Assembly (NCBI GenBank): GCA_009778915.1
Contig: WRFH01000001.1
Span: 372,001 to 436,000, forward strand
Reading direction: 5' to 3'
Source of the DNA: Elusimicrobiota bacterium
Lineage (GTDB): Bacteria > Elusimicrobiota > Elusimicrobia > Elusimicrobiales > Elusimicrobiaceae
Length of the DNA stretch: 64,000 nt
The position numbers were made by a program, and so were the translations under genes. How positions within the stretch are numbered: the stretch's first letter is position 1; the number at the start of each line of letters is the position of its first letter. Below are positions 7,906 through 44,938 of this stretch, in pieces. The notes under the pieces are model-generated. The model did no database searches. It saw only the letters and a list, made by a program, of their open reading frames with translations, and was not told the origin of the DNA.

Positions 7906-10551
7906 ATGTTCAACAGATTTTTTAAAAAGAATTCAACCGCTAAAAATAATGACGGAATAAACAACTATATTAATAATTATATGTGCATGAAAACGGAAGA
8001 ATTATATTCCGTTTTTTCCACGTCTCCCGCAGGAATAACCGAAGAAAACGTCGAAGAAAGAATCCAAAAATACGGCCCTAACCAGATTGTAAACGAACAG
8101 GCTCTGCCCGTCTGGCGCGCGCTGCTGGACGCTTTTTTAAATCCGTTCACCATAGTTTTGGTTGCGCTGGGCACGCTGGATTTCTTTTTGGATTTCGTGT
8201 TTGCCGCGCCGGGGGAAAAAGATTTGAGCGCCGTCATAGTAATCGCCAGCATGGTTATGTTAAGCGGCGTGCTGCGTTTTGTGCAGGAATATAAATCCGC
8301 CAAAGAATCCGAACGGTTAAAAGCGCTGGTTAAAACCACGGCGACCGTTATGCGCGGCGGTACCAGGACGGAAATTCCCATTACCAATATCGTGCCGGGC
8401 GACGTTATTTTACTTTCCGCGGGCGATATCGTGCCGGCGGACAGCAGGGTTTTAAGCGCAAAAACTTTATTTATAAACCAGTCCGCGCTGACCGGCGAAT
8501 CGGCGCACGTAGAAAAAGCTCCGCCGGCTGAAAACTGCGTTCCGCCGTCTAACGTTTTGGAAAACACGGCGCTTTGTTTTATGGGGACGAACGTTATCAG
8601 CGGCTCTGCCTCCGTAATGGCTTTGGGCACGGGCAGGAATACTTTTTTGGGCGCCATCGCGAAAGTCGTCGCCGGAAAAAAAGTTGAAACAAGTTTTGAC
8701 AAAGGCATGAAGAACGTAAACTTTCTTCTTATACGTTTTATGCTCGTTATGGCGCCGGTGGTTTTTTTAATAAACGGTTTTGGGAAAGGGGATTGGATGG
8801 AAGCGTTATTTTTCTCTCTGTCCGTCGCCATAGGTCTTACGCCGGAAATGCTGCCGATGATAATAACCTCTAACCTCGCCAAAGGCGCGGTAAATATGTC
8901 CAAAAAAAGCACTATCGTCAAGCGTTTGAATTCCATACAAAATTTCGGCGCCATGGACGTTCTGTGCACGGACAAAACCGGCACGCTTACCCAGGACAAA
9001 ATTGTGCTGGAAATGCACCTTAACCTCGAAGGGCAGGAAAGCGAAGACGTTTTGCAGAATATTTATCTGAACAGTTTTTTCCAGACCGGGCTTAAAAATC
9101 TGATGGATATCGCGGTTATAACTTACGTTAACGAACATGGGCTTGAAAAGTACGGACAAGGTTTCAGTAAAGTGGACGAAATGCCTTTTGACTTCCAGCG
9201 CAGGCGCATGTCCGTGGTAATTTCAGACGGCGCGCATACAAGAATTATCACCAAAGGCGCGCTGGACGAAATGTTTGAAATTTGTACGCACGTCATAGAC
9301 AACGGCGTTTTAAAAGAGTTGGACGGCGACATAAAAAACAAAGCGCGTATACTGACGAACAGTCTTAACACGCAGGGCATGCGCGTGATAGCGGTGGCTT
9401 ATAAAACATGCCCGCCGGAGCAGAAAGATTTTAACGTGTCCGACGAGGCCGGCATGACGCTTGCCGGTTTTGCCGGCTTTCTGGACCCGCCTAAGCAAAG
9501 CACGGCCGCAGCCATTAACGCGCTGCGGGATAACAGCGTGCGCGTTAAAGTTCTGACGGGGGACAATGAGCAGGTGTCGCGTTTCGTCTGCAAAAGCGTG
9601 GGGCTTGATATCCAGAAAATCATCACCGGCGAGGATATCGAAAAATATGACGAGGACGATTTGAGGGAGATGGTTGAAATATGCACGGTGTTCGCGCGGC
9701 TGTCGCCCATGCAGAAGCTGCGAATAGTAAAAGCTTTGCAGGACAACGGGCATACCGTCGGGTTTCTGGGCGACGGGATTAACGACGCGCCGTCTTTAAA
9801 GCAGGCGGACGTCGGCATTTCGGTGGACAGCGCGGTGGATATCGCGAAAGAATCCGCCGATATTATTTTGCTTAAAAAAGATTTGATGGTATTGGAAGAA
9901 GGCGTGCTGGAAGGAAGAAAGACTTTCGGCAACATTATTAAATATATAAAGATGGCGGTGTCTTCAAATTTCGGAAACATGTTCAGCGTCGTCATAGCCA
10001 GCCTTTTCCTGCCGTTCCTTCCCATGCTGCCGCTGCAAATTTTGGTGCAGAACCTGCTTTATGATTTGTCCCAGGCGGCGATACCGTGGGATAATATGGA
10101 CAAAGAATATTTGAGAACGCCGAAAAAATGGGAGATTGGTTCGCTCAGGCAGTTTATGTTTTGGTTCGGCCCTACAAGCAGCGTGTTTGATATATTGACT
10201 TATATAATAATGTTTTATATTTTCCTCGCGAATACGGTGGAAATGTCTCCGTTATTCCAGACCGGCTGGTTTGTGGAAGGCCTTATTTCACAGACGCTTA
10301 TCGTCCATATGATAAGGACGGAGAAGCTTCCTTTCATACAGTCCCGCGCGGCAACGCCGCTGCTGGTAATGTCCGGCCTAGTCATAGCGTCGGCCGTGGT
10401 GCTGCCTTTTACCGTCGTCGGAAAATATCTGAATTTCGTGCCGCTGCCGCTGAAATATTTCTATTTTCTCACGGCGATGATTTTAGGCTACTGTCTGCTG
10501 ACGCAGGTTATTAAAAAGATTTATATCAGGCGTTACGGCAATTTACTTTAA
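7906..10551 (+). CDS. mgtA: Magnesium-translocating P-type ATPase
   Basis: DKTGTLTQD phosphorylation motif, LTGESAHVEK, GLTPEMLPMIITSNLAKGA, GDGINDAPSLKQADVGISVD. Confidence 0.93.
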   Translation: MFNRFFKKNSTAKNNDGINNYINNYMCMKTEELYSVFSTSPAGITEENVEERIQKYGPNQIVNEQALPVWRALLDAFLNPFTIVLVALGTLDFFLDFVFAAPGEKDLSAVIVIASMVMLSGVLRFVQEYKSAKESERLKALVKTTATVMRGGTRTEIPITNIVPGDVILLSAGDIVPADSRVLSAKTLFINQSALTGESAHVEKAPPAENCVPPSNVLENTALCFMGTNVISGSASVMALGTGRNTFLGAIAKVVAGKKVETSFDKGMKNVNFLLIRFMLVMAPVVFLINGFGKGDWMEALFFSLSVAIGLTPEMLPMIITSNLAKGAVNMSKKSTIVKRLNSIQNFGAMDVLCTDKTGTLTQDKIVLEMHLNLEGQESEDVLQNIYLNSFFQTGLKNLMDIAVITYVNEHGLEKYGQGFSKVDEMPFDFQRRRMSVVISDGAHTRIITKGALDEMFEICTHVIDNGVLKELDGDIKNKARILTNSLNTQGMRVIAVAYKTCPPEQKDFNVSDEAGMTLAGFAGFLDPPKQSTAAAINALRDNSVRVKVLTGDNEQVSRFVCKSVGLDIQKIITGEDIEKYDEDDLREMVEICTVFARLSPMQKLRIVKALQDNGHTVGFLGDGINDAPSLKQADVGISVDSAVDIAKESADIILLKKDLMVLEEGVLEGRKTFGNIIKYIKMAVSSNFGNMFSVVIASLFLPFLPMLPLQILVQNLLYDLSQAAIPWDNMDKEYLRTPKKWEIGSLRQFMFWFGPTSSVFDILTYIIMFYIFLANTVEMSPLFQTGWFVEGLISQTLIVHMIRTEKLPFIQSRAATPLLVMSGLVIASAVVLPFTVVGKYLNFVPLPLKYFYFLTAMILGYCLLTQVIKKIYIRRYGNLL

Positions 10552-11435: not shown

Positions 11436-11512
11436 GCTCCCCTAGCTCAACTGGATAGAGCGGCGGTCTTCGGAACCGCAGGCTGCGGGTTCAAATCCCC
11501 CGGGGAGCACCA
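11436..11512 (+). tRNA. tRNA-Arg (anticodon TCG)
   Basis: 7 bp acceptor GCTCCCC/GGGGAGC, anticodon arm GCGGT-CTTCGGA-ACCGC, TTCAAAT T-loop, encoded CCA. Confidence 0.93.
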
Positions 11513-11514
11513 AT

Positions 11515-11660
11515 ATTTTTTGCCTATGGGCAAAAAACTCTCCAAGCTTTTGGGTGAGTTTGCATTTTCCGCTGCTGCGACACACTCTCGCTCGCTGTGC
11601 TCGCTCAGTCAAGTGTGCCTCCGCAGCGGAAAATGCAAACTCACCCAAAATCTCGGGGCC
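11515..11660. repeat. Palindromic intergenic element C (28 bp perfect inverted repeat plus 5' mini-hairpin)
   Basis: TTTTGGGTGAGTTTGCATTTTCCGCTGC (11548-11575) exactly complementary to 11623-11650; preceded by TTTTTTGCC-tatg-GGCAAAAAA. Confidence 0.9.
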
Positions 11661-15826: not shown

Positions 15827-17116
15827 ATGAGACCGGAAACTAAAGTCGGATTATTTACCGTAATAGGAATAGTATTGTTCGGCATAACTATTTATATGCT
15901 GGGCAACGTTTCTATGGGCGGGGAATATAAAATCAACGTCAGATTCGGCGACGTTTCCGGGCTGCCTAAAAAGTCCGTCGTCAAACTGAACGGCGTGGAC
16001 GTCGGCAAAGTGCGCGATATCCAGATGCGCGGGGACCATGTTAACGTCGTGCTGGGTATCAGGGACCATGTCGAAATTTACAGAGATTCCGTTTTTAAAA
16101 TAGCTTCCACCAGTTTAATAGGCACAAAATATCTGGCGATAGTGCAGGGCAGCGGGGCCGCCGGCGTTCTGAAACACGGGGACACGGTGGACGGCTCCAA
16201 AGAACTGCCGCTGGAAGAGATGCTGGCGCAGACTATGAATACCGTGCAGGATTTAGCGAAAAGCGTCAACAGCAACGGCGACTTGGGGCGCAATTTAAAC
16301 GAGACTATGCTGAACATGCGGCTGCTTTCAAACAATTTAAATTCTCTTATAGCGTCGATGAAACCTTATCTTGAAAATACCATGACAAACGTCAGCCGCA
16401 GCACGGACGACCTGCAGACGCTTATGGCCCGCGCCGACGAAATTACCAGGCAGATACAGGAAAGCGAAGGCGTTTTGGGCGCTTTAATAAATGATCCGCA
16501 AATGAAGATGGACGTTAAAGAATCCGTCTCAAATCTGAAGACCACTATGGGCGAGGCTAAAGAGTTTATAGGCAAAATGTCCCGCTTCCGCGTGTTCTGG
16601 ATGTATGACGGATATTACAACACTGCTTCCGGCGCCGTGAGCAATAACGTGGGCTTGAAAATTTATCCGAGCAACGACTATATGTATTACCGCGTCGGGC
16701 TGTCAAACCTCGGCAACACAAACAATATCCAGGGTAAAGACGATTATATGGAGAAAAACCAGCTTGACGCGCGGCTTGGTTTTTACAACAGATATTTTGA
16801 CGTTTCCGCCGGTTATATTATGGGCGCGGGCGGGCTGGCCGCCGTGGTTACGCCGTTCGCGGACACGGAGTTTTTGAATAAGTTCAGCGTGCAGGGGCAG
16901 GCTACGGATTTTGGCAGAGACAGAGATATAAACGGCAGGCATTTCAGCAAGCCCAATCTCTGGTACGGCGTGAATTTTGAAATTAATAAGTATCTGAACG
17001 TGGGCGCCGGCGTAGAGGACGCGCTGGAGGTAAACCAGCCATATATAAAGGCCTCCGTCAAGTTCCAGGATAAGGATATAGCCGCGTTCTTCGGGTTGGC
17101 TACTTTAGCTAAATAG
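15827..17116 (+). CDS. MCE/MlaD-domain protein with C-terminal beta-barrel-like region
   Basis: MRPETKVGLFTVIGI, VRFGDVSGLPKKSVVKLNGVDVGKV MCE domain. Confidence 0.87.
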   Translation: MRPETKVGLFTVIGIVLFGITIYMLGNVSMGGEYKINVRFGDVSGLPKKSVVKLNGVDVGKVRDIQMRGDHVNVVLGIRDHVEIYRDSVFKIASTSLIGTKYLAIVQGSGAAGVLKHGDTVDGSKELPLEEMLAQTMNTVQDLAKSVNSNGDLGRNLNETMLNMRLLSNNLNSLIASMKPYLENTMTNVSRSTDDLQTLMARADEITRQIQESEGVLGALINDPQMKMDVKESVSNLKTTMGEAKEFIGKMSRFRVFWMYDGYYNTASGAVSNNVGLKIYPSNDYMYYRVGLSNLGNTNNIQGKDDYMEKNQLDARLGFYNRYFDVSAGYIMGAGGLAAVVTPFADTEFLNKFSVQGQATDFGRDRDINGRHFSKPNLWYGVNFEINKYLNVGAGVEDALEVNQPYIKASVKFQDKDIAAFFGLATLAK

Positions 17117-17124
17117 ACGGTAAA

Positions 17125-17361
17125 GGAGTGATTTTCCTAGAAAATCACACTTATATCACAACGCCTGCGGCTGAGGCGCTCCGCGTTCTGTTGCTGTTTC
17201 GCTCCCTTCGGTCGCTTGGCGGGGGGTTGAAAAATTTCTTCGGCTTTTGAGCGCTTTTCAATTTTTCCGGCCCTCGCCGTACGCTCCGCTTTAAGTACTT
17301 GCTCAGGCCGGAGAAAATTGAAAACCATCTCAAAATCCTGTGAAATTTTTCTGCGGACGAC
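17125..17361 (+). repeat. Palindromic intergenic element A
   Basis: Shares a 61 bp identical block (17125-17185) and further blocks with 24119-24353; GTGATTTTC-cta-GAAAATCAC mini-hairpin; long stem 17255-17272/17306-17324. Confidence 0.92.
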
Positions 17362-22453: not shown

Positions 22454-22623
22454 TTTCCTCTCCCCTTGCGGGAGAGGACACAGGTGAGGGGTTATGAACA
22501 CAACATGTACACAAATATACCGCCGTAACCGGTTGGAAAAACTCAGCGCAACTCTGGAACTTTTTTCCCTGGCTATCGCTTACCACTCACCCCAGCCCCT
22601 CTCCCGCAAGGGGCGAGGGGAAA
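22454..22623. repeat. Inverted-repeat intergenic element (CCTCTCCCGCAAGGGG type)
   Basis: 22454-22494 and 22585-22623 are imperfect inverted copies around CCTCTCCCGCAAGGGG; each arm is itself a hairpin. Confidence 0.85.
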
Positions 22624-24107: not shown

Positions 24108-24118
24108 GTATTCTCTGA

Positions 24119-24353
24119 GGAGTGATTTTCCTAGAAAATCACACTTATATCACAACGCCTGCGGCTGAGGCGCTCCGCGATTTCTCCTGTGTCGCTCCCT
24201 TCGGTCGCTTGGCGGGGGGTTAAAAATTTCTTCGACTTTTGAGCGCTTTTTTATTTTTATGGCCCTCACCGTACGCTTCGCCTTAAGTACTTGGTCGGGC
24301 CATAAAAATAAAAAATCATCTCAAAATCCTGTGGAATTTTTCCTACGGACGAC
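24119..24353 (+). repeat. Palindromic intergenic element B
   Basis: Second copy of element A; stem 24248-24265 perfectly complementary to 24298-24315 but different in sequence from element A stem. Confidence 0.92.
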
Positions 24354-24424
24354 CGGGATACGGCACTGCCCGACACGACACGGCAACGATATTGCCACGG
24401 CTGGATAAAGACTATAAACCAATT

Positions 24425-27386: not shown

Positions 27387-27405
27387 CTTGATTAAGGAGA
27401 TTCTT

Positions 27406-28053
27406 ATGAAAAGCAGACTAATTATGTCAGCAATTTTTTGTTTCGCGGCCGCTTCCGTTTTTGCCGCTTATGTTTATACCGACGATAGTAAAACTACCGC
27501 GCAGGCTGATAATCAGCTGACGCAGACACAGCAGGCGCAAAGGGGCAGCTCCAGCTTACTATTCACCAACGGCGGAAAAGTAAGCGGCGGTTCCGCCAGT
27601 ACGATAAAACCGGGCAATGCGTCCGGAGGCATGTCAAGGTCCTCGTTTACTTCTATAACGACAGGCACTACCGGCGCAGACGGCACCTGCACGCCGTGCG
27701 ACTCTACGTGCCCGACGGGACAGGCAAGAACGTCCAACAGCTGTCAGGAGGACACCGGCGGCTGCTGCGTTACCAAAACGCTCTGCGCGGCGGTAACGTG
27801 CCAGACAGGTTATAAAAAAACAGGCAATACTTATGATACTGATATCGGCGGTTGCTGCGATTTGGTCGCCGCGCCCGCGTGTACCAGCCCTAAGGTGCTG
27901 GTTAACGGAGTCTGCAAAACGCCTTGTTTTAAAAAATGTCTTAGCGGGCAAGTAAGAAACCCGAAAGTCAATTATACAGAGGACGGTGAGTGCTGTATAG
28001 CTTGTGTTCCGAGCGGTACCGGCGCCCAATGCCTTCAGCTGGCTATAGATTAA
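27406..28053 (+). CDS. Exported Cys-rich repeat protein (paralog 1)
   Basis: Signal peptide MKSRLIMSAIFCFAAASVFA; repeats CxxC-x-TGQxRxxNxxxEDTGGCC; start set at ATG after AAGGAG RBS. Confidence 0.82.
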   Translation: MKSRLIMSAIFCFAAASVFAAYVYTDDSKTTAQADNQLTQTQQAQRGSSSLLFTNGGKVSGGSASTIKPGNASGGMSRSSFTSITTGTTGADGTCTPCDSTCPTGQARTSNSCQEDTGGCCVTKTLCAAVTCQTGYKKTGNTYDTDIGGCCDLVAAPACTSPKVLVNGVCKTPCFKKCLSGQVRNPKVNYTEDGECCIACVPSGTGAQCLQLAID

Positions 28054-28067
28054 ATAAGGAAATTCTT

Positions 28068-28742
28068 ATGAATAAAAGATTATTAATGTCAGCAGTTTTT
28101 TGTTTCGCGGCTGCTTCTGTTTTTGCCGCTTATGTTTATACCGACGACAGTAAAACTACCGCGGCGGTTGACAGCCAGCTGACGTCGTCAGAGAATAACC
28201 AAAGGGGCAAATCCGGCTTACTATTCACCAACGGCGGAAAAGTAGGCGGCGGTTCCGCCAGCACAATAAAACCTGGCAACGCGGCCGGCGGTATGAGGAG
28301 CTCTGTAACGTCTATAACTACGGGCTCTACAGGTACAACCGGTTCTGGCGGCGTCTGCACTCAGTGCACTGATACCACTTGTCCGACGACTCAGGTAAGA
28401 ACGGCCAACAACTGCGCTGAGGATACCGGCGGCTGCTGCGCGGACAAAACGCCATGCACGCGGACATCTTGCCAGACCGGATATATAAGAACAGGCAACA
28501 CTTATGCGGAAGATGTAGGCGGCTGCTGTGATTTGGCCGCGGCGCCAACGTGTATAAGCCCCAATGTACTCGTAAACGGACTCTGCAGAACGCCGTGTGC
28601 GGCCACCCGCGGTTGTCTTGCCGGATATGTAAAAAACCCGAACATTACTTACGCGGATGAGGGGAGCTGCTGTATCCTTTGTAACGGGACCGTTACCAGG
28701 ACAGGATGCGTGCAGACAACTACGAATACGCCAGCAAGATAA
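28068..28742 (+). CDS. Exported Cys-rich repeat protein (paralog 2)
   Basis: N-terminus nearly identical to 27406 product; same Cys-rich modules. Confidence 0.82.
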   Translation: MNKRLLMSAVFCFAAASVFAAYVYTDDSKTTAAVDSQLTSSENNQRGKSGLLFTNGGKVGGGSASTIKPGNAAGGMRSSVTSITTGSTGTTGSGGVCTQCTDTTCPTTQVRTANNCAEDTGGCCADKTPCTRTSCQTGYIRTGNTYAEDVGGCCDLAAAPTCISPNVLVNGLCRTPCAATRGCLAGYVKNPNITYADEGSCCILCNGTVTRTGCVQTTTNTPAR

Positions 28743-32095: not shown

Positions 32096-32297
32096 TTTTC
32101 TCCCTTTCGTAAAGGGAGTACCCGCGAAGCGGGGGAGGGATTTAATATTAGCGACGTTAGGAGAGGATTATAAAGGGCCTTTATAAAATGCCGTGTAAAA
32201 AATAAGTTTTACGTCTATTAAATCCCTCCACTGCGGCGCGCCCTAAAGGGCGCAAACGGCAAAGGCCGCAGGTACTCCCTTTACGAAAGGGAGAAAA
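32096..32297. repeat. Two-part inverted-repeat (MITE-like) intergenic element
   Basis: TTTTCTCCCTTTCGTAAAGGGAGTACC ... GGGAGGGATTTAATA ... TATTAAATCCCTCC ... GGTACTCCCTTTACGAAAGGGAGAAAA. Confidence 0.9.
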
Positions 32298-43109: not shown

Positions 43110-43213
43110 ATTTTAAATTATATAAAAATAAAGCTTTTTCCGCTTACGCGGAATTAAAAACCGCGCGGAAACTGGTTTTTTGCAGTGTTTGTACAAAACG
43201 GCTTTCCGATTTT

Positions 43214-43259
43214 CGCAAAAAATTTCACGTCTGAGACCAACATAGCCTTTTTAGTTATT
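43214..43259 (+). promoter_or_regulatory. Conserved promoter-upstream block, copy 1
   Basis: 46 bp, 44/46 identical to 44041-44086, same 63 nt spacing to GTG start; aligned -10 TATAAT at 43282. Confidence 0.8.
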
Positions 43260-43322
43260 TTAGATTAAGTTTTTTTGGGTTTATAATATAAGTGTGATTT
43301 TACGCTTATAAAGGAGGTTTTT

Positions 43323-43904
43323 GTGAAAAGAATACTAAAACTTTTTATGTTTGCCGCACTGTTTTTTTGCGCCGCTCTGGTTTACGCGCAGAGCAACGAT
43401 TATTACGCCTGCCGTTGCAGGCAGTGGAACGGGAGCAATTTGTCGTCTCTGGGAGTGGCGCTTAATACGTGCTGCTCTTTAAAGCAGAGCGGGTATAACG
43501 TGGGCACAAACTTTACAGGTGGCGGTACGGTGGTGGGAACACAGTCTGGCGCAAACGTTACCTGCGGCTGTACTCCTAATTCCAAACAGCCGTGCGGAAC
43601 TTGCGGAATGCAGACTTGCAGCAGCTCCGGCAGCTGGGGCAGCTGCGTAGAAACGCCAAGACCAAACACCAGGCAAGACTGCTCTGACTGCGGCGTACAG
43701 ACCACAACGGCAACATGTAATCCGTCTGCGGCTACATGGACGCTGGGAAGCTGGAGTTCTTGTACCGGATATTACATCATGCGGACAATTTGCTGTGGCA
43801 CAACGACTGACACTCAATGTAAAGCCATGGGTTCCGCAAACTACCCGCCCGCCTGTACTAACTGCTCGGGTAATCAATATATAAAAATTGATCCGGCGGC
43901 TTAA
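43323..43904 (+). CDS. Exported Cys-rich protein (paralog 3)
   Basis: GTG start after AAGGAGG; signal peptide; NDYYACRCRQWNGSNLSSLGVALNTCC; CGTCGMQTCSSSGSWGSC modules. Confidence 0.78.
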   Translation: MKRILKLFMFAALFFCAALVYAQSNDYYACRCRQWNGSNLSSLGVALNTCCSLKQSGYNVGTNFTGGGTVVGTQSGANVTCGCTPNSKQPCGTCGMQTCSSSGSWGSCVETPRPNTRQDCSDCGVQTTTATCNPSAATWTLGSWSSCTGYYIMRTICCGTTTDTQCKAMGSANYPPACTNCSGNQYIKIDPAA

Positions 43905-43935
43905 AAAGTATCTTATTCTTAACTGTTGAAAGCAA

Positions 43936-43977
43936 TAAAACACCGGCATCCGCAAAAAGCAGACGCCGGTGTTTTTT
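43936..43977 (+). terminator. Rho-independent terminator
   Basis: ACACCGGC...GCCGGTGT then T6. Confidence 0.8.
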
Positions 43978-44040
43978 GTTCCGATAAATAATTTTTTTTC
44001 CAAAATCTCTTACATAATAAAAATCGCTATTCCTTTTTTT

Positions 44041-44086
44041 CGCAAAAATTTTCACGTCTGAGAACAACATAGCCTTTTTAGTTATT
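44041..44086 (+). promoter_or_regulatory. Conserved promoter-upstream block, copy 2
   Basis: See 43214-43259; aligned -10 TAGAAT at 44109. Confidence 0.8.
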
Positions 44087-44149
44087 ATGGATTACGTATT
44101 TTATGGTTTAGAATATAAGAGTAATTCCAGGATTATTAAGGAGGTTTTT

Positions 44150-44938
44150 GTGAAAAAAATAATAAATTTAGTGTTTGCGGCAGTTTTGTTTATGGTTGCG
44201 GCAGCATATTCTGTTTCTGTTTACGCCGCATGCAGTGACAATTATCATGCGTGCCGCTGTAAACAGTATACCGGCGGTAATTTTAGTTCATTAGGAGTTG
44301 GTTCTCTTAATGACTGCTGCACTTACAGGCAACAAGGCTGTGATGTAGGAACTTCATTTTTTACAGGGACAGGGCTGACGTTTGACAGCGCCAGCGGTAA
44401 GTGTAAGACGCCTTGCCCGTCTTCATGTTCCTCTGGACAAAGCAGAAATACATCCGTCAGTTTTTCAGATGACGGCTCCTGTTGTATTACTAAAACGCCT
44501 TGTTCAAATTTCTGGAGTACCAAAAAAGTAGGGCTGGTAACTACCCCCATATGCAACGCCCCGGGCGAGTATCCGTCTGATTGGATTCCAAACCAGTCCT
44601 GCGCGTATCTTGAAGACGGCTGCGACTGCTGCCAGCCCGGCGGCGGCAGCAGTTACTGTACTAATAATATGATATCTTCCGCGGCCAATGTATGCAGCGA
44701 ATACGGGACAAGCAGTACCCAGTGCATATGCGCCAACGGCAACCAGAAACAATGCGCCGGGGCAATTTACGGCCCCGTCGGCACAACGCCTGAAACCCAA
44801 TGTATTCAGAACGGGGCCACATACCCGTATTGCAACTGCACGAATTTTACAAGCTATTGGTACGGCGCGAGGCCGAACTGGCAGGATATGGCCTGCATAG
44901 GTCTTCCGGCCAAATGCACGTCGTCTGGAACAAATTGA
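44150..44938 (+). CDS. Exported Cys-rich protein (paralog 4)
   Basis: GTG start after AAGGAGG (ORF-track ATG 44087 lies upstream of the -10); NYHACRCKQYTGGNFSSLGVGSLNDCC and CSSGQSRNTSVSFSDDGSCC. Confidence 0.78.
   Translation: MKKIINLVFAAVLFMVAAAYSVSVYAACSDNYHACRCKQYTGGNFSSLGVGSLNDCCTYRQQGCDVGTSFFTGTGLTFDSASGKCKTPCPSSCSSGQSRNTSVSFSDDGSCCITKTPCSNFWSTKKVGLVTTPICNAPGEYPSDWIPNQSCAYLEDGCDCCQPGGGSSYCTNNMISSAANVCSEYGTSSTQCICANGNQKQCAGAIYGPVGTTPETQCIQNGATYPYCNCTNFTSYWYGARPNWQDMACIGLPAKCTSSGTN

Follow-up and report, generated by a model that had tools for sequence, protein, structure and literature searches.

Element A, an intergenic hairpin in a 64,000-nucleotide stretch of an Elusimicrobiota genome (the window), is a member of a multicopy dispersed hairpin repeat family in Elusimicrobiota. 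We consider it probable that the element is a dispersed, non-autonomous palindromic repeat that has no RAYT, works like a REPIN and has had its structure conserved. More than 100 copies form a natural series of changing letters and constant shape, and there are also orthologous sites that are occupied in one genome and empty in another, and with these it could be possible to separate selection on structure from copying by template switching.

Elements A and B and their parts

The coordinates of element A, of the related element B and of their parts are collected in Table 1; R1 denotes a covariance model built from 21 copies, which picks up more diverged members than a DNA search does, and the names of protein genes (mlaD-like, nadB, porin-like and others) come from a reading of the translations. 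The two elements are identical over 62 nt (17124-17185 and 24118-24179) and have in common, in addition to this block, the identical 30-mer TCGCTCCCTTCGGTCGCTTGGCGGGGGGTT. The shared block described in an earlier note on this DNA is real, the differing P3 arms read as quoted there and pair in both elements, and the outer helices TTTTGAG/CTCAAAA and GAAAAATTTC/GAAATTTTTC are present, while the note's description of element A as one of a pair needs correcting, since the window holds a third family match (11545-11655) and the genome many more. Folding energies compared with dinucleotide shuffles gave z values of -5.5 and -5.6 for elements A and B, and none of 200 shuffles folded as well. Element B follows a porin-like gene and an intrinsic terminator. 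The hairpin of the 5' module was also seen elsewhere in the window's genome (L008, ~1440-1465) with arms that have changed yet are complementary, GTGCGCTTTTGGCGCAC replacing GTGATTTTCCTAGAAAATCAC.

Table 1. Positions of the hairpin elements, their parts and other repeats (window coordinates unless a locus is named)
Feature	Position	Strand	Remarks
Third hairpin, diverged	11540-11658	+	28 nt behind tRNA-Arg (11436-11512); R1 match 11545-11655, E 1e-6
Element A, whole	17124-17361	+	Between mlaD-like gene (stop 17114-17116) and nadB (ATG ~17406)
Element A, 5' module hairpin GTGATTTTCCTAGAAAATCAC	17128-17148	+	Optional; absent or displaced in some copies
Element A, 5' module small palindromes CGCCTGCGGCTGAGGCG, TCGCTCCCTTCGGTCGC	17162-17215	+	Optional, variable
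Element A, long hairpin core	17225-17353	+	R1 match, 150 bits, E 4e-32
Element A, P1 5' strand GAAAAATTTC	17229-17238	+	Partner 17342-17351
Element A, internal loop next to P1	17239-17241 facing 17339-17341		TTC facing TGT
Element A, recurring mismatch	17244, 17336		C17244 against T17336
Element A, P2 5' strand TTTTGAG	17245-17251	+	Partner 17329-17335
Element A, P3 5' (beta) arm TTTTCAATTTTTCCGGCC	17255-17272	+	
Element A, P3 3' (alpha) arm GGCCGGAGAAAATTGAAAA	17306-17324	+	One extra base, the polar bulge
Element A, P1 3' strand GAAATTTTTC	17342-17351	+	
Element B, whole	24118-24355	+	Long hairpin core 24217-24344, R1 128 bits
Element B, P3 arms	24247-24265 / 24297-24315	+	100% complementary
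Palindromic repeat CCTCTCCC..GGGAGAGG	22454-22621; L033:19556; L034:4599; L039:100; L050:25 and 1039		
MITE-like CTTCCC/GCGGG palindromes	32096-32297; L033:5814; L035:1870; L036:16597; L038:1770 and 3231		
Family B copies (G000)	L034:14154; L037:4898; L038:17729; L042:636; L045:765; L047:10157; L118:1625		
Tandem duplications	27388-28598; 43210-44166		246/222 nt at 76-84%, 130 nt at 86% identity

Copy number and distribution

The window's own genome (G000; 1.27 Mb, 66% complete) carries the family in about 10 places by DNA search, and R1 finds strong copies in 11 places at E 1e-11 or better, plus diverged ones. The set in the congener G001 is larger by DNA search and comprises more than 30 copies, and the congener G002 has none, either by DNA search or with R1 at E 0.01. 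At this threshold R1 gave 40 matches in G000, 87 in G001, 37 in G005, 48 in G010, 22 in G012, 5 in G082, 4 in G206 and 0 in G002, counts that overstate copy number because antisense matches to the same hairpins are included. Across 296 genomes of the phylum, R1 at E 1e-4 matched only in the window's family, including other genera, and in a distant family (f15), the copies in these other genera and in f15 being more diverged; a scan of named genomes linked G001 to Elusimicrobium sp. MAG Ehx436_bin12 and gave one match in Endomicrobium sp. Hs463_bin78, with the same coordinates as in an f15 genome. Most matches outside G000 and G001 are individually weak (E 1e-5 to 1e-11), and their assignment to the family is credible because they have motifs and context in common.

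In G010 we also observed intergenic tandem arrays of 2-4 hairpins with short linking repeats (L081:300-940 and 8100-8640; L082:150-470; L083:1626-2036).

Other repeats

Several other repeats were observed. A set of related hairpins in G000, called family B here, has an apex of 28-36 nt (GACGAGCATAGCG..CTATGTAAGGA) between long, copy-specific inverted flanks; the two flanks of one copy match almost perfectly, whereas those of different copies have little resemblance. Spacer inversion was suspected in family B, as the apex occurs in both orientations, and was rejected because the alpha and beta marks of the arms turn with the apex, so that whole elements are reversed. There are also MITE-like palindromes made of CTTCCC/CTCCCC and GCGGG/GGCGG units, with two arms of different types, and another palindromic repeat of 150-170 nt with arms CCTCTCCC..GGGAGAGG that adjoins hairpin elements in G001 too. 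The two tandem duplications in the window are apparently duplicated genes with their leaders.

Occupied and empty sites and the search for a mobiliser

Contig C117 of G001 is syntenic with the window. At the mlaD-nadB site, which holds element A in G000, G002 has a spacer of ~14 nt and no element, and G001 has a copy of another arm type with added modules; because this arm type recurs in other G001 copies, the difference may be a replacement between copies and not stepwise compensation in place. The alr-mlaE site holds a copy in G001, none in G000 and no R1 match in G002. When empty and occupied sites were compared, no clear target-site duplication could be read. This multicopy, mosaic, present-or-absent pattern fits the interspersed palindromic (REP- or MITE-like) reading offered in the earlier note.

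The linked RAYT gene that such a reading had brought to mind was not found. PF01797 (Y1/RAYT) is absent from G005, G010 and G012 despite their many copies (genomes 92-99% complete, with 22-48 R1 matches each, both strands counted), and there is one in G001 and one in the copy-free G002; PF00078 (reverse transcriptase) is likewise absent from G005 and G010. A RAYT/Y1 or a reverse transcriptase as the mobiliser was rejected, since the presence of these genes does not track copy number and no R1 match lies near them in the stretches examined.

Conservation of the fold

One folded shape, ~110-145 nt long, recurs across 150 copies, with AT-rich helices of variable sequence and small bulges at fixed places, always in a given arm. 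An energy-only scan for long folds was swamped by coding DNA, and perfect-run and arm-alignment filters were used instead. The common plan consists of T-rich arms read inward, a mismatch ahead of the P2 T-run and extra bases in the alpha (3') arm. When the arms of the 150 copies were aligned copy by copy, an extra base after the P3 T-run was found in the alpha arm 109 times and in the beta arm 6 times, and the TTTG-G/TTTGAG polarity was 56 versus 0. The outer helix P1 is paired in nearly all copies read and constitutes terminal inverted repeats.

In the 21 copies of the model, 90% of cells are paired, a value that leans towards structure because structure and alignment were drawn from the same 21 sequences; a shift of the 3' partners by 1-3 columns lowers it to 36-63%. 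The double changes are stronger evidence than this percentage: 15 pairs changed on both sides, compared with 7.7 +/- 1.6 in shuffles and with none of 500 shuffles reaching 15, by statistics that ignore the kinship of the copies. A copy's own 3' arm was the best partner of its 5' arm in 75 of 114 copies and within the best five in 108, with ties in the ranking because some copies have arms in common. The paired change that the earlier note had seen between two elements is thereby borne out, and its conserved structure with changing arms extends to more than 100 copies. Its third suggestion, exchangeable arms, draws some support from arm types that recur among copies and from a few hybrids with arms of different types (L026, L225).

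Placement at tRNA genes and gene borders

In copies from genera other than the window's, 25 of 54 beta ends are found no more than 10 nt from a gene border, compared with 3 of 49 alpha ends; because genes were called as simple open frames, individual distances may be inaccurate. The features that beta ends touch are stop codons, tRNA ends and, in reversed copies, start codons, in which case the arm includes the Shine-Dalgarno stretch. Most G000 and G001 copies beside protein genes have the 5' module between the gene end and the hairpin; in these two genomes the beta distance has a median of 104 nt. About half of 28 tRNAs are followed by a hairpin in a biased sample, the stretches having been chosen mostly for their hairpins. 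With independent sampling by tRNA, a fold-back within 30 nt of the 3' end was present in 14 of 29 cases in G005 (at least one being another kind of hairpin), in 6 of 34 in G082 (some being other kinds) and in 2 of 30 in G001, and the fold-back score behind tRNAs was rarely reached by composition shuffles. Several tRNAs of G005 have a hairpin against the 5' end as well, its beta end towards the tRNA, and there are hairpins on both sides of tRNA-Trp of G005 (L091) and of tRNA-Tyr at L065. In f15 and the Endomicrobium contig, a tRNA 3' end directly adjoins 11 of the 13 matches read. Related species share copies at the tRNAs for Lys and Ser (G000 and G001) and for Val and Lys (G082 and G206), which speaks somewhat against mobility, since it may also reflect copies that were inherited vertically and have a function.

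That one end adjoins gene borders exactly is the strongest feature of the family, one that the earlier note could not see, and the real puzzle. Random insertion followed by purging leaves it unexplained. One explanation, which we regard as possible while leaning against it, is that the hairpins are structured RNAs at transcript ends (terminators, stabilisers or processing sites) and that selection acts on the RNA fold. Placement exactly behind stop codons and the 3' ends of tRNAs, with constant polarity, agrees with this, but there are also beta ends directed towards start codons and the 5' ends of tRNAs, and the orientation to upstream protein genes is mixed (45 same, 35 opposite). The T-run of the tRNA forms the outer helix, the fold is strong, as the z values indicate, and several tRNA copies are common to related species; yet the family is wholly absent from the congener G002, and no Rfam 15 family scored above its gathering threshold. 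Selection on RNA as judged from G.U wobble is unsupported, with 6 G.T/T.G against 14 A.C/C.A isolated helix mismatches (30 versus 37 in a looser count), an argument that is itself weak, given the low counts and the kinship of some copies. Of the structured-RNA family proposed in the earlier note, the conserved fold stands, and the missing Rfam match and lack of G.U bias leave the RNA reading as a rival.

More speculatively, and in our judgement unlikely, the family may represent hairpin elements of a new kind, which target or mark transcription-unit borders: a directional, bulged fold placed by a new enzyme with its beta end exactly at tRNA ends, stop codons and, in reversed copies, start codons, sometimes on both sides of a tRNA. 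If the placement is a targeting rule, it would point to a new enzyme or process able to recognise where bacterial genes begin and end. A narrow search restricted to open-access papers turned up no paper on repeats of this sort, whether in Elusimicrobiota or next to tRNA genes, and no report of a bulged, polar hairpin family against tRNA or gene borders.

Maintenance of matching arms

Under the REPIN-like reading that we favor, the conserved part would be the long fold, whose small bulges and internal loops have fixed, polar places, and its shape would presumably be read by whatever moves or maintains the copies as the letters of the AT-rich helices drift. The mobility of the copies, the existence of a recogniser and the cause of arm matching are what we infer here. 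The arms may stay complementary through loss of copies whose arms no longer pair, through re-templating of one arm on the other at replication, or through both. Spreading copies would be hairpins, with or without side modules, that insert or persist mainly at the edges of genes, the beta end often directly at a stop codon or tRNA end.

A mutational process by itself, in which template switching homogenises an imperfect palindrome without selection on structure, is an improbable cause of the matching. Two papers describe such a process for inverted repeats (PMC8604942, PMC8794818). Arm types do differ by blocks of several pairs, and family B has long, nearly perfect, copy-specific inverted flanks (~30/31 in L118 and L045), but template switching should erase the bulges too, and bulges that persist in the same arm in several genera and in two families are evidence against a simple homogenising of the arms, as are the persisting hybrids with mismatched arms (L026, L225). 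That the hairpins are recombination sites like integron attC, which have a poorly conserved sequence, a variable tip, extra-helical bases in a single strand and a position behind stop codons, as do the copies here, and are defined by end boxes with a GTT..AAC core together with an integron integrase, is most improbable, because the copies lie beside core genes and tRNAs and not in gene-cassette arrays, and attC-like end boxes are not evident by eye.

Comparison with known repeat systems

The family has the terminal inverted repeats of a MITE, P1 being paired in nearly all copies read. Palindromes of the BIME, ERIC, Correia and RPE types are intergenic, mosaic and hairpin-forming, often with no known mobiliser. 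Our family resembles them in these respects, the comparison being by description and not by sequence, and we found no description of tRNA or gene-border placement for palindromes of these types. Interspersed palindrome families are surveyed in PMC2267715. The CGTC-tagged palindromic repeats, units of 20-40 bp with the tag at one end, similarly have no dedicated transposase (PMC3733652), and some copies (family B, G005) have a GACGA / TCGTC motif beside the apical stem; in our family, however, the motif lies inside a hairpin of 110-145 nt, and it is missing from elements A and B. Quasipalindrome template switching, reported in PMC8604942 and PMC8794818 to homogenise the arms of inverted repeats and maintain hairpins, would let both arms change at once, but it is a mutational process and not an element family, and it leaves the dispersal and the kept bulges unexplained.

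The closest likeness is to REPINs, which are REP doublets that form a hairpin (Bertels and Rainey 2011, PMC3116915). REPINs have conserved ends and compensatory stem changes, the latter reported as common, so that conserved ends with a compensated stem are not in themselves new (PMC3116915). Our family likewise is a dispersed extragenic hairpin of similar size, with two inverted units, conserved ends and a variable, compensated stem. It differs from REPINs in its longer arms with fixed polar bulges, in the placement of its beta end at gene borders, in having several carriers without a RAYT and in its ends, which by eye read GAAAAATTTC/GAAATTTTTC or TTTTTRC/GYAAAAA with no GTAG tag. The family is thus REPIN-like in its apparent working and not a REPIN by membership.
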